A stretch of 64,000 nucleotides of DNA from Catenulispora sp. EB89 (GTDB taxonomy: Bacteria; Actinomycetota; Actinomycetes; Streptomycetales; Catenulisporaceae): contig NZ_JBGCCU010000015.1 in the NCBI RefSeq assembly GCF_041261445.1, forward strand, positions 1 through 64,000, written 5' to 3'. A program made the position numbers and the translations under genes. Below, one piece after another: positions 44,739 through 48,834 of this stretch. The notes under the pieces were generated by a model. The model did no database searches. It was not told where the DNA came from and saw only the letters and a list, made by a program, of their open reading frames with translations. Numbering within the stretch: position 1 is the first letter of the stretch; each line of letters opens with the position of its first letter.

Positions 44739-45206
44739 TCAGGCGGTCGGCAGTCCTTCGGTCACGTTCTCCATCTGCTGCGCGGGTTGCTCCTCCGCCT
44801 GCTCCGCCTCGGTCCAGCCGAACGCCAGCGAGCCGCCGACCATGGCCAGCAGCATGCCGATCAGGAAACCGCCGAGGTTGCTGGTCATCCAGCTGGCGGC
44901 GGCGAACAGCAGGGACAGGACCGAGTAGAAGACGCGGTGCTGGGGGTCGAAGATCAGGCACAGGCCCAGGACCACCAGCAGGACCGGGACCGCGTAGCCG
45001 GCCAGGCCGTACAGGCCCATGTGGATGCTGGCCTTCATGGCGGCGTGGTACAGCAGCAGCATCTCGCCGCCGCCGAGGATCACCAGCAGTCCGCCCCAGA
45101 ACGGCCGGGTGCGGCGCCAGTGCCGGAAGGCACGGCGCGCTCCTCGGTGTTCCTCGGGGGCCGGGGCCTCCGGGAAGAGGAGCGCGCCTTCTTCATGCTC
45201 GGTCAC
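44739..45206 (-). CDS. DUF6114 membrane protein
   Basis: A 155-residue membrane protein. After a 35-residue cytoplasmic head, four hydrophobic helices are seen: FWGGLLVILGGGEMLLLYHA, LYGLAGYAVPVLLVVLGLCLIF, VFYSVLSLLFAAASWM and GGFLIGMLLAMVGGSLAFGW. The pattern and the partner gene match the DUF6114 family, which in streptomycetes is coded next to DUF6230 proteins. The start is 3 bp after the DUF6230 stop codon, so the two are one translational unit. Function unknown; probably a membrane partner of the DUF6230 protein. Confidence 0.82.
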   Translation of the reverse strand: MTEHEEGALLFPEAPAPEEHRGARRAFRHWRRTRPFWGGLLVILGGGEMLLLYHAAMKASIHMGLYGLAGYAVPVLLVVLGLCLIFDPQHRVFYSVLSLLFAAASWMTSNLGGFLIGMLLAMVGGSLAFGWTEAEQAEEQPAQQMENVTEGLPTA

Positions 45207-45209
45207 CGT

Positions 45210-45839
45210 TCAGCAGCCCGTGCTCTGGAAGCTCATGCTCAGGCCCGGCAGGGTGAACGTCGAAGCGGTGGTCGCGTAGCTGTCCTGGCGGACGTTGTCG
45301 ATGTCGACCGTGTCCGCCTGCTGGCCGAAGCTGTACTTCGGGCCCACCTGGGTGTCCTCGGACAGGTTGGACGCGTCGCGGCCGATCTGGATGTTCTGGA
45401 AGGTCGCGTCGCCGGACAGGTCCGTGGAGTCCAGGATCAGGTTGCTGGCGTGCACCGGGGTGCCCTTGTCGCCCGCCCTGATCACCAGGTCGATCCCGGG
45501 CAGGTGGACGCTCTGGCACAGGTTGGTGATCTGCGCGTCGCCGATGACCGAGGTCATCACCAGGGCCTGGCAGTTCGAGCTCTTCAGCCAGGGGTTGTCG
45601 CACTTGTTCTGGCTGTTGAGCAGGGTCGTGTCGAGCCCGGCGAACTGCTCGAAGTTCGACCCGTGCAGGTGGCTCGCGGTCACCACGAACGGCATGCCCG
45701 AGATCGCGAACTGCACGCCGAGGGCGCCCTGCGCCGTCAGGATCACGAGCGCGCCGGTGGTGGCCAGGGCGGCCATCCCGGGTATCGCGGCGCGACGGTA
45801 GCGGACTTTGCCTTCGGCCTTGACGGATTTCGTCGCCAT
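45210..45839 (-). CDS. DUF6230 membrane-anchored secreted protein
   Basis: About 209 residues from ATG 45839, with AAAGGAG 5 nt upstream. One N-terminal hydrophobic segment (GMAALATTGALVILTAQGALG) anchors or exports it; the rest is extracytoplasmic with Cys in NKCDNPWLKSSNCQALV, TNLCQSV and the C-terminal STGC. SGMPFVVTASHLHGSNFEQFAG and IQIGRDASNL are conserved in DUF6230. Old annotations call such proteins cholesterol esterase, but no esterase motif is present. It has a strong promoter with an operator at the transcription start. Confidence 0.85.
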   Translation of the reverse strand: MATKSVKAEGKVRYRRAAIPGMAALATTGALVILTAQGALGVQFAISGMPFVVTASHLHGSNFEQFAGLDTTLLNSQNKCDNPWLKSSNCQALVMTSVIGDAQITNLCQSVHLPGIDLVIRAGDKGTPVHASNLILDSTDLSGDATFQNIQIGRDASNLSEDTQVGPKYSFGQQADTVDIDNVRQDSYATTASTFTLPGLSMSFQSTGC

Positions 45840-45936
45840 TCGGCTCCTTTCCGTTCCTGTCACCAGGCGCGGGTGATGCCGGCGCGATCGCCTGGACGAG
45901 ATGGAACCAGCACCGGCACAGCTGGAATGTGACATG

Positions 45937-45992
45937 AGTCACCTGCTAGGTGACTGACGGGTAACATACTCTCAGGGTTTTGAATCGGTCAA
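45937..45992 (-). promoter_or_regulatory. DUF6230 operon promoter with +1 operator
   Basis: On the minus strand TTGACC (45987-45992) and TATGTT (45963-45968) are 18 bp apart. Directly downstream, AGTCACCT-GCT-AGGTGACT (45937-45955) is a perfect inverted repeat with 8-bp arms located at the predicted transcription start. The dyad should be a repressor site. Confidence 0.75.
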
Positions 45993-46023
45993 CCGTTCGG
46001 TACCTGATTCTTCGTGCGCTGAT

Positions 46024-46989
46024 TCAGTCGCTGCCGACACCGGCGTCGGCCTGCGGCGGGACGCACGGTGCGACCGAGCGGGGATGATCTGCCAGCGCGG
46101 CGTGCGAGGCCTTCGCGGCGATCTCGGGGCCGACGAAGGGTGCGACGACGAAATAGACCAGACCGGGCAGCAGGTTCGGCAGTTCGGTCGTGCGGCCGTT
46201 GGCGATGTACCGGTAGAGGGTGCCGTACGCGCCGGCAACCACCGCGTTCACCAGCTCCCCGCGGTCCACGGCCGGCGGCGTGGCCGGCGCCAGGGCGAAG
46301 AAGGCCTCGAAGTCGCGCAGCCGCTCGGAGCGGGCCTGGCGGCCGGCCGGGCCGACGGCGTCGATCTCGACGATCGCGGCCGTGGCGAAGGCCGGGACGC
46401 TGGCCAGGACGTCCAGCAGGACACTGAGAACCGCGCTGGTGGCACGGGTCCACGTCTCGACGTCGGTCTCGTAGTCGGCGGCGGGGCAAGGGATTTCGGC
46501 GGCGTGCGCCGTGCCGTCGGCCGCGTGCGCGGTGACGTCGTCGGCGTCGGCATACGCGCCGGCGGCATCGGCGGAAGCGCCCGCGCCGGCGGCGGCACCC
46601 GCGTCATCCGAGTCATCCACGGCACCCGAGCCATCCGCACCGTCCACGACCTCGTCGATGTCGACCGCGTCGCGAAAAGCATGCCGCAGCATGGCGAACA
46701 GCACGTCCGTCCCATGCCGGTAGGCGGCCAGGAAGGCGCCCTGCTTGCTCTCGAAGTGCTCGTAGAAAGCCGGCCGCGTGACGCCGGAGACCCGGCAGAT
46801 ATCGCTGACCGAGGCGTTCGCGTATCCGCGTTCGGCGACCGTGCGCACCAAGCCGTCGTACAGCCGGTCCCGCTGCGTCGCCACGACCTGCTCGCGCGGC
46901 ACCCGGCTGGGCCCGCGTTTGATAGCCCGCTGCGGATCACGCGGCGAACGCGCGCCGGGCAGCGGGGTCAGAACGGGTGAAACAGGCAT
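46024..46989 (-). CDS. TetR-family regulator with Ala/Asp-rich insertion
   Basis: About 322 residues from ATG 46989 (GGGGGAGAAG upstream). The N-terminal 40 residues are basic and extended; the TetR helix-turn-helix follows (RDRLYDGLVRTVAERGYANASVSDICRVSGVTRPAFYEHFESKQGAF). Residues about 112-165 are an acidic Ala/Asp/Gly-rich insertion not found in ordinary TetR proteins of about 200 residues. It lies between the DUF6230 operon and two divergent secreted-protein genes, with a TACCGGCCGGTA palindrome in the divergent gap, so it is the likely controller of this locus. Confidence 0.85.
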   Translation of the reverse strand: MPVSPVLTPLPGARSPRDPQRAIKRGPSRVPREQVVATQRDRLYDGLVRTVAERGYANASVSDICRVSGVTRPAFYEHFESKQGAFLAAYRHGTDVLFAMLRHAFRDAVDIDEVVDGADGSGAVDDSDDAGAAAGAGASADAAGAYADADDVTAHAADGTAHAAEIPCPAADYETDVETWTRATSAVLSVLLDVLASVPAFATAAIVEIDAVGPAGRQARSERLRDFEAFFALAPATPPAVDRGELVNAVVAGAYGTLYRYIANGRTTELPNLLPGLVYFVVAPFVGPEIAAKASHAALADHPRSVAPCVPPQADAGVGSD

Positions 46990-47049
46990 CTTCTCCCCCG
47001 GGGGCTTGACTGGAGAACCCCGCAGAGTTACAACTCCCACGGGTTTTGT

Positions 47050-47061
47050 TACCGGCCGGTA
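47050..47061. promoter_or_regulatory. 12-bp perfect palindrome, likely TetR operator
   Basis: TACCGGCCGGTA lies 61 bp upstream of the TetR start and 183 bp upstream of the divergent secreted-protein operon. This half-site type (TACCGG) is common for TetR-family operators. Nearby 47082-47125 has a triplicated phrase (CTCGACCCCTGAAA and CTCGACCCCCGCAA). Confidence 0.6.
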
Positions 47062-47243
47062 TCAGAGTGTGATCTGTACTCGACCCCTGAAAATCCGTAC
47101 TCGACCCCTGAAAGTCCCTGCTCGACCCCCGCAAGAGCGCTCTTGGATCTGCACAAACGCCTTCTCGATCTTGCTTCTCCCCGGCGTCGTCGTCGACGCA
47201 GTCCCCGCTCATCTGACATCCCCGCTGACGAGGGAGCGTGAAC

Positions 47244-48176
47244 ATGGCTGTCCCAGGCCTGTTCCATCGGTTCAGAACACGTACAGCCGCCGCGGTCGCG
47301 GCCGCCCTGGCGCTGGTCGCCGTGGCCGCCTCGCCGTCCGCCGCGGCGACCGGGCAGCCTTCGGGCCCGTACACGGGCATGGGCACGTGCCCCACCTCCA
47401 GCACCCAGATGCAGGACCCGAACCAGGCCGTGGTCGGCTGCGTGGTGGCCACCATAGGCGGTGGCGGGTTTTCTGTGGGTTCCACTCAGGTGAACTTCAG
47501 CTCACCGATGACCGTGACGTTCGGCGTCACCTGGGCCAAGGGCGGCCCGACGGTCACGTTCCCGGACAAGACGGTCGCGCAGCTGTTCTCCACCGTGTCC
47601 CCGACCGACGGCGACGAGCTCCAGGCCAGCCCGCTGGACGTGCCGATCCCCGGCCTGTCCAACTTCTGGCCCGGCGTCACCAGCGCCATCGTGCAGATCG
47701 AGCTGGCCGGGCCGATCACGAACTTCGCCCCGCTGTCCGCCGGCGAGAACTACCCGCTGTTCCAGCTGCCGATCAAGCTCCATCTGATGAACCTGTTCCT
47801 CGGCTCCGACTGCTACGTCGGTTCCGACAGTGCCCCGATCCTGCTCAGCCCGACGGCCGGGACCACGAGCCCGCCGCCGCCGAACCAGCCGGTCAAGGGC
47901 AGCACCGGCACCATCTCCATCGGCCGGGACCCCAACGGCTTCAAGCCCACGATCGTCGGCTTCAACGGCGCGACGCTGAACGACAACGCGCTGCCGGTGC
48001 CCTCGGCCAACGGCTGCGGCCTGTTCGACACCGCCGACTGGATCGTGAACCTGTTGTTCGGCCTGCCCTCGGCGGCCGGCCACAACGCGATCACGCTCTC
48101 CTCGGTCACCACCGCCCTCGCCGTCGACAACAGCGACAGCGATCTGATCAACGCCATCAACGCCACCAGAAAGTGA
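47244..48176 (+). CDS. Secreted protein of the DUF6230/TetR locus
   Basis: About 310 residues from ATG 47244, with AGGGAG 7 nt upstream. A signal peptide of about 35 residues ends SPSAAATG. The mature part is a beta-rich, Cys-poor protein: GTCPTSSTQMQDPNQAVVGCVVATIGGGGFSVGST, then PLDVPIPGLSNFWPGVTSAIVQIELAGPITNFAP and LPIKLHLMNLFLGSDCYVGSDSAPI. I do not recognise an enzymatic motif; the segment FLGSDCYVGS suggests a disulphide with the later NGCGLFD. It is followed 7 bp later by a second exported protein gene, forming an operon divergent from the TetR gene. Confidence 0.72.
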   Translation: MAVPGLFHRFRTRTAAAVAAALALVAVAASPSAAATGQPSGPYTGMGTCPTSSTQMQDPNQAVVGCVVATIGGGGFSVGSTQVNFSSPMTVTFGVTWAKGGPTVTFPDKTVAQLFSTVSPTDGDELQASPLDVPIPGLSNFWPGVTSAIVQIELAGPITNFAPLSAGENYPLFQLPIKLHLMNLFLGSDCYVGSDSAPILLSPTAGTTSPPPPNQPVKGSTGTISIGRDPNGFKPTIVGFNGATLNDNALPVPSANGCGLFDTADWIVNLLFGLPSAAGHNAITLSSVTTALAVDNSDSDLINAINATRK

Positions 48177-48183
48177 GTCCGTC

Positions 48184-48834
48184 ATGCGCACCCGTACCCT
48201 CGCCCTGACCGCTCTGGCCGCCGCCGGCCTCGTGCTCGGCGCGGCCGGCCAGGCCGGCGCCAGCACCGGCGGCGTGCTGACCGTCGGCAGCGCCGGCGGC
48301 ACCAACGCGAACGTCGGCGACACCCTCACCGGCGCGATCAACAGCGACTTCATCTTCACCACCAGCAGCGGCACCATCGACTGCAGCACCGGCTCGTTCA
48401 CCGCCGGCGTCACCGCCAACCCGGCGGTCGGCTCCGGAAACGCCACCGAGTCCATCACCGGCCTGCACGCCGACCCGGCGAACTGCAGCACCACCATCGG
48501 CGGCACCCTCGGCGTGGTCAGCGTGGAGATCAACGGCGCGGCGAACGGCACCGTCGTGGACGGCTCCAGCCCGAAGCTGAAGGTCACCAACCTGGACGAG
48601 CAGGTCACGCTGTCCTCGTTCCTGGGCGACGTCACGTGTGACTACGGGACCACCGGCTCGGTCACCGAGATCGACGGCGCGCTGTCGAACGTCAGCAAGT
48701 CGATCAGCTTCGCGACCCAGAACGTCAACCTGATCAGCGGCTCCGGGCTGTGCCCGAGCAACGGCACGTTCAGCGGCGGCGTCGGTCCGGTGCTGGACTC
48801 CTCGCAGAGCAACCAGGCGGTGTACGTCAATTAA
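48184..48834 (+). CDS. Second secreted protein of the locus
   Basis: A 216-residue exported protein with a 27-residue signal peptide (LALTALAAAGLVLGAAGQAGAS). The mature protein is rich in Ser, Thr and Gly and looks all-beta; four Cys are seen (TIDCSTG, ANCSTT, VTCDYG, GLCPSN), likely two disulphides. No known domain is recognised. It starts 7 bp after the previous gene and ends before a strong terminator, so it is the last gene of the operon. Confidence 0.72.
   Translation: MRTRTLALTALAAAGLVLGAAGQAGASTGGVLTVGSAGGTNANVGDTLTGAINSDFIFTTSSGTIDCSTGSFTAGVTANPAVGSGNATESITGLHADPANCSTTIGGTLGVVSVEINGAANGTVVDGSSPKLKVTNLDEQVTLSSFLGDVTCDYGTTGSVTEIDGALSNVSKSISFATQNVNLISGSGLCPSNGTFSGGVGPVLDSSQSNQAVYVN

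Follow-up and report, generated by a model that had tools for sequence, protein, structure and literature searches.

What are the five genes that fill positions 44739-48834 of the window for, and do they belong together? The window is the whole 64,000-nucleotide stretch of contig NZ_JBGCCU010000015.1 analyzed here, from the 11.9 Mb genome of Catenulispora sp. EB89, and the locus in question encodes a DUF6114 membrane protein, a DUF6230 protein, a TetR-family regulator and two exported proteins that we call D and E. We find that the five genes are a genuine conserved module. As to its function, we tentatively favor a surface module under TetR control that a ligand induces and that deals with hydrophobic compounds from outside the cell, in the first place lipid or sterol esters, a reading that we regard as quite possible.

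Gene set and conservation of the locus

The minus strand carries the DUF6114 gene (44739-45206; 155 amino acids (aa) from a GTG start; PF19609 at 124 bits against a cut-off of 27.9), the DUF6230 gene 3 base pairs (bp) away (45210-45839; 209 aa with the start MATK; PF19741 at 144.1 bits against 27.5) and, alongside, the TetR gene (46024-46989; 321 aa from the ATG; TetR_N at 39.1 bits against 24). Divergent from these, on the plus strand, lie D (47244-48176; 310 aa) and E (48184-48834; 216 aa), the latter starting 7 bp past the former. A preliminary description, made from the letters alone, had given this arrangement, and gene calls and Pfam agree with it. The AGGAG ribosome site and the MATK start of DUF6230 are kept in nine Catenulispora loci, and a hydrophobic segment at its N-terminus suggests that DUF6230 is either exported or anchored. 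Neither D nor E matches any Pfam or NCBIfam family above its cut-off. Their translations begin in the manner of signal peptides, and each family has four invariant cysteines (C49, C66, C190 and C258 in 15/15 rows for D; C67, C101, C152 and C190 in 24/24 rows for E), which upholds the earlier view of both as exported, disulphide-bearing proteins. DUF6114 was also considered as an M50 peptidase and rejected, the Peptidase_M50B score being 24.8 against 26 bits across membrane segments of a sequence that has no HExxH.

For the conservation of the set, 60 genomes were searched and 60 stretches were fetched around DUF6230, E or D matches, covering part of the DUF6230 matches. In this set the complete five genes are found in eight of the nine Catenulispora congeners and in two of four sister-genus genomes (G012 and G013, but not G010 and G011 of the same family); the ninth congener (G006) is a 77% complete genome with no DUF6230, D or E match. 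Counting the source genome in both cases, E is present in 32 and D in 17 of the 60 genomes. Among the Streptomyces genomes 21 of 45 have E, and the DUF6230-DUF6114 pair is divergent from E in 20 of these 21 loci, the exception being G040. A genome of another family (G240) has DUF6114-DUF6230-TetR facing E. A copy of E is duplicated adjacently or nearby in two congeners (G007 and G009) and in the sister-genus genomes G012 and G013 (L100, L103, L049 and L107).

Named genomes, which share some species with the 60-genome set, were scanned with the DUF6230 alignment, and the best 80 of 129 loci (78 Streptomyces, one Catenulispora and one labelled Micromonospora) were selected by likeness to the DUF6230 of the window, independently of E. 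DUF6114 stands beside DUF6230 in all 80. A divergent E is found in 72, and in the other eight the contig ends at most about 850 bases upstream of DUF6230. D occurs in one of the 80 and a locus-type TetR (score >300) in two, and therefore TetR and D are lineage-restricted additions to a core of DUF6230, DUF6114 and E. A scan of the named genomes using E alone found no relative. The locus labelled Micromonospora (L210, from sp. KC213) has the order E-TetR-DUF6230-DUF6114 and groups with the G240 locus; the contig may be mislabelled or the locus transferred.

A tree of 85 DUF6230 rows has one branch, supported at 100/100, that sets the 45 E-linked rows apart. In this tree every eighth row of the named Streptomyces was kept, the G240 locus was entered twice, rows with E beyond the contig were labelled E-linked, and some distant rows are long-branched and unsure in placement. 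With this single clade and the co-conserved five genes, the claim that the set is kept together in other actinobacteria has held. In a class-wide sample of 296 genomes from 115 genera, E was detected in 19 genomes, two of them with marginal E-values, and in 5 genera, and DUF6230 in 61 genomes and 19 genera; DUF6230-DUF6114 pairs are found without E in many genomes. These numbers, together with the lack of D in most E-bearing loci, could be taken to mean that the locus consists of two adjacent units with no joint function, where TetR controls D-E alone and the DUF6230-DUF6114 pair works at the surface independently. We consider this improbable, since the E-linked DUF6230 proteins form a clade of their own with E alongside in every evaluable named locus, and since the shared dyads described below sit within the common gap. 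Although DUF6230 is spread over so many genera, the leads found here to its function amount to the name of an enzyme and a single response to Tween. Through the E-linked clade the family is connected with one particular secreted barrel, with a regulator and with candidate operator sites at defined positions, and the function can therefore be tested in ordinary Streptomyces strains.

The distribution of E also bears on whether the module has to do with nutrients at all. In the class-wide sample E turned up only in Catenulispora and a sister genus, Streptomyces and a few others, and the genera named are filamentous. D, E and DUF6230 might accordingly coat hyphae or spores as an envelope or developmental layer, switched by TetR at a growth stage, a structural role that would suit small exported proteins that have disulphides but no enzymatic residues, and also the duplications of E. 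However, about half of the Streptomyces genomes lack E, which is odd for a core developmental part, and both the mce link of D and the reported induction of a DUF6230 paralogue by Tween (see below) point to lipids. It appears somewhat unlikely to us that the module is a coat.

Promoters, dyads and the TetR regulator

The preliminary description had pointed out a strong promoter with a +1 operator and a TetR palindrome. Promoter-like sequences and dyads were located on both sides of the TetR gene, and both regulatory blocks are conserved over nine Catenulispora loci (window included), while parts of the flanking DNA diverge. In front of D-E lies a promoter-like TTGACT-17-TACAAC (47006-47034, plus strand), conserved in 9/9 loci and followed, 15 nucleotides past the -10, by the palindrome TACCGGCCGGTA (47050-47061), a candidate TetR operator that is identical in 8/9 loci and has one change in L095. 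DUF6230-DUF6114 are preceded by a promoter-like TTGACC-18-TATGTT (45963-45992, minus strand), near-invariant in 9/9 loci, with an inverted repeat GTCACCT-3-AGGTGAC at about +1 (45938-45954). The repeat is kept in the congeners with altered letters and spacer and is weaker in L094 and L097. Support for TACCGGCCGGTA comes from its conserved position and not from rarity, because the 12-mer occurs at two places in the source genome against three for the reversed control. A genome-wide regulon was rejected on the same counts; the second site (L253) lies near a small gene that looks unrelated.

In Streptomyces the E promoter has the TTGAC-TACAA shape in 38 of 72 loci (strict pattern, within 400 bases) and is followed by a dyad GGATCCGTGGCGCCGGATCC in place of TACCGGCCGGTA. 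The exact arms GGATCCG-6-CGGATCC are present in 66 of the 80 named loci, of which 65 have them within the gap or on the upstream side of DUF6230 (the L232 dyad was scored outside the gap owing to a misplaced E coordinate). The 14 loci without exact arms comprise 11 from Streptomyces with at most two mismatches to the 20-mer, L248 with four, and the two non-Streptomyces loci with five and six, and in L198 and L231 both arms have changed together. The exact-arm pattern is absent from the examined loci of the type-1 DUF6230 of Streptomyces (see below). Since the gaps and dyads are common to both units, DUF6230-DUF6114 and D-E are probably co-regulated. Control by TetR is likely, because its gene sits between the two units and conserved dyads adjoin both promoters; a point against it is that the gap of most Streptomyces loci lacks a TetR gene of this kind.

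TetR homologues at the same position are found in Catenulispora, two sister-genus genomes, G032, G240 and L210. The window protein does contain the acidic, Ala/Asp-rich insertion that had been pointed out before (46453-46674, minus strand; 74 aa, 20 of them acidic). As a meaningful feature it fails, because its length across 13 homologues runs from 6 to 74 residues (74 in the window, 24-65 among the eight congeners compared, 6 in both sister-genus proteins and 8 and 30 in the two Streptomyces ones), and we rejected it as a functional element. The regulator resembles the TetR/AcrR lipid regulators FasR, FadR and Mce3R in its helix-turn-helix (HTH) domain (FasR model 5.1e-8; Mce3R structure 3.1e-9), but the similarity is mainly that of the HTH, lies far below the NCBIfam cut-offs and singles out no ligand class.

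A leader hairpin in Streptomyces

Between the dyad and the start codon of E the Streptomyces loci carry a hairpin with a 21-pair stem and the near-constant loop UACGGAGAAGG (loci L173-L251; for example L190:7250-7313, minus strand). When 43 distinct copies are aligned, 92.1% of the cells pair, against 22-50% in slid controls, and two-sided changes are seen in 12 of the 21 pairs. These copies were chosen by the exact motif CGGAGAAGGC, and the constancy of the loop is therefore partly a selection effect; copies found later by a covariance model have small loop changes. The hairpin is present in 62 of the 72 named loci with E (53 by exact motif and nine by the model), the ten loci without it including Catenulispora and the Micromonospora-labelled locus, and in 15 of the 20 Streptomyces loci of the 60-genome set where E lies beside DUF6230. 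Of 61 Streptomyces genomes, 17 gave a match with the model, each at a single site once readings on both strands are merged. E follows in 16 of the 17, and in the remaining one (G359) the contig ends, with DUF6230 adjacent. Promoter, dyad, hairpin and E occur in this order in 59/59 loci where all three elements could be located. A covariance-model search of the window gave no hairpin match. The loop also occurs in 14 contigs of a viral-contig scan.

Because the hairpin is downstream of the promoter, the data favor a function as RNA rather than as a DNA element, from which they otherwise leave it unseparated. Rfam 15 gave no match at the gathering threshold for eight E loci with the hairpin, and one sub-threshold match only for the window stretch. 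To judge from Rfam 15, the leader hairpin is a structured element that has not been catalogued, and it has one place of its own in each genome that carries it. A literature search on Streptomyces leader RNA returned nothing fitting by title or abstract start, one in full texts on DUF6230 and DUF6114 nothing beyond the listing of a promoter, and one on DUF6801, a family met below, nothing. Judged by these searches and Rfam, neither the E-linked module nor its leader hairpin seems to have been described; the component families are already known as DUFs.

DUF6230 relatives and the esterase lead

A second type of DUF6230 in Streptomyces, type 1, has the gene order thioredoxin, DUF6230, DUF6114, one unknown gene, pyruvate kinase. 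It shares with the window the Pfam families and the DUF6230-DUF6114 pair but lies outside the E-linked clade, and it has thioredoxin and pyruvate kinase genes nearby where the window has TetR, D and E. Cholesterol esterases of actinomycetes are said to have been treated by Xiang et al. in 2007. For S. coelicolor, where pyk2 is SCO5423, one study calls SCO5420 a cholesterol esterase and gives it as almost 37-fold up on Tween (PMC7494193). The position of SCO5420, three genes from pyk2, matches the type-1 order, and it is by this order that we equate it with DUF6230. The preliminary description had all the products as membrane-bound or exported, which stands, and as an undescribed system with no enzymatic motif; the latter needs amending because a DUF6230 relative is reported under the name of cholesterol esterase and as strongly induced by Tween. 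By analogy with this SCO5420 paralogue we treat a lipid role of DUF6230 as a lead.

The structure model of DUF6230 is all-beta (pLDDT 65.8). A fold search with it gave no match at Z >= 5 (best 2.8), and the family has no conserved histidine column (best 7/24 and 14/38 rows). A classical serine esterase is therefore unlikely, and DUF6230, if an esterase, would be a non-classical one. Because the model is of middling quality, the blank fold search is no evidence for a new fold. Elsewhere in the source genome there is a tandem DUF6230-DUF6114-DUF6230-DUF6114-DUF6230 array (L089, G000:C17:33500-51500), and a congener has the same (L099).

Protein D and the mce operons

Homologues of D in Streptomyces are 31-35% identical to the window's D, and five of the six lie beside an mce operon with an mkl-type ATPase, MlaE and Mce; the sixth is at a contig end. 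Such mce operons import lipids and sterols. The mce cluster of Streptomyces is given in PMC1810536, together with SCO2422 as its ATPase. At L073, L074, L076, L080 and L081 the neighborhood of the mce-side D homologues also encodes a PucR-type regulator, the small exported protein sec40 and a member of DUF6801. The window resembles these operons in its D and differs from them in that its genome is without MlaE. The link of E to sec40 is not significant once signal peptides are removed: hhalign gave a probability of 73 with them, but without them a score of 15.9, where 30 shuffles reached up to 16.6, and the homology of E to sec40 was rejected as unproven. Comparisons of D with DUF6801, E with D and E with DUF6230 by hhalign gave nothing. 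A weak profile match of D to the hydrophobin MPG1 (E-value 0.0033) was judged to be due to chance, because the matched stretch of the profile (102-177) holds none of the four invariant cysteines.

The predicted fold of protein E

The preliminary description had called both D and E beta-rich. For E this agrees with the structure model, an eight-stranded-type beta-barrel (pLDDT 83.6, pTM 0.74), and the evidence is confined to E. The model aligns with OmpW at Z 10.1 (3.0 Å, 145 aligned), DynF at 9.5, OprG at 9.2, the polyisoprenoid-binding 1wub at 8.1, AlkL at 8.0 and the antibiotic-sequestering 7bwl at 7.3. E is thus predicted to share a fold with OmpW/OprG/AlkL, DynF and the YceI-type polyisoprenoid-binding proteins (Z 8.0-10.1), but differs from them in being an exported protein of a Gram-positive, in its four invariant cysteines and in having no sequence similarity to them; the Pfam YceI and OmpW profiles gave no match to E at E-values up to 1. 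Elsewhere the source genome has another gene that distantly resembles E (102 bits; L165:7829-8521, G000:C21).

The alignment with 7bwl could be read in terms of defence or competition, since TetR regulators often sense drugs: E or D, as a secreted barrel protein, would act on other microbes or sequester their products, as do some YceI-like antibiotic sequesters, DUF6230-DUF6114 would protect the envelope and TetR would sense an antimicrobial. A Z of 7.3 is, however, within the range of common arrangements, and the E family is conserved and not diversified (mean column identity 69%, 36 rows), and we hold this reading to be very unlikely.

Proposed function

For the surface module handling hydrophobic compounds, as we prefer to read the locus, we infer TetR binding, the ligand, the lipid handling of each protein and all steps after derepression as follows. 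TetR would repress its own locus from the dyads beside the two divergent promoters, and a hydrophobic ligand would release it. DUF6230, exported or membrane-anchored and made together with DUF6114, would then act on or bind the substrate at the cell surface, while E, as a small disulphide-braced beta-barrel, may bind or shuttle the hydrophobic product and D may assist its delivery to the envelope. A more specific version, in which E as a secreted Gram-positive OmpW/YceI-like protein carries hydrophobic molecules between the outside and the DUF6230-DUF6114 unit, and in which Streptomyces adds two-level control by promoter dyad and leader RNA, seems doubtful to us. In that version the 21-pair covarying hairpin with its UACGGAGAAGG loop would sense a ligand, a protein or a small RNA and set the translation of E.

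Several findings weigh against a module for lipid or sterol esters. SCO5420 is equated with DUF6230 by gene order only, by way of a type 1 that stands in another part of the DUF6230 tree, and the missing histidine column and fold match of DUF6230 count here as well. Genes called cholesterol esterase or DUF6230 are placed under differing conditions in three reports (PMC12835213, PMC4098958, PMC12772271): a DUF6230 promoter of S. albulus is a moderate one in a constitutive-promoter screen (PMC12835213), and in SirexAA-E a putative cholesterol esterase, which may or may not be a DUF6230 protein, is up on xylose and xylobiose (PMC12772271). The barrel matches of E are modest and common to many unrelated barrels, and Foldseek with the E model found nothing at an E-value of 0.001 (best 0.35). 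The source genome has no match to PF02405 (MlaE/YrbE permease), and D is therefore not a Mce partner there; weak relatives of D in L254 and L255 also have no mce genes nearby.

Neighboring genes in Streptomyces

Within the fetched range L051-L071, 14 Streptomyces loci have a gene for a lytic polysaccharide monooxygenase (PF03067, cluster 7) that adjoins E or lies near it. Several of these loci have, beyond DUF6114, what we take to be a conservon.

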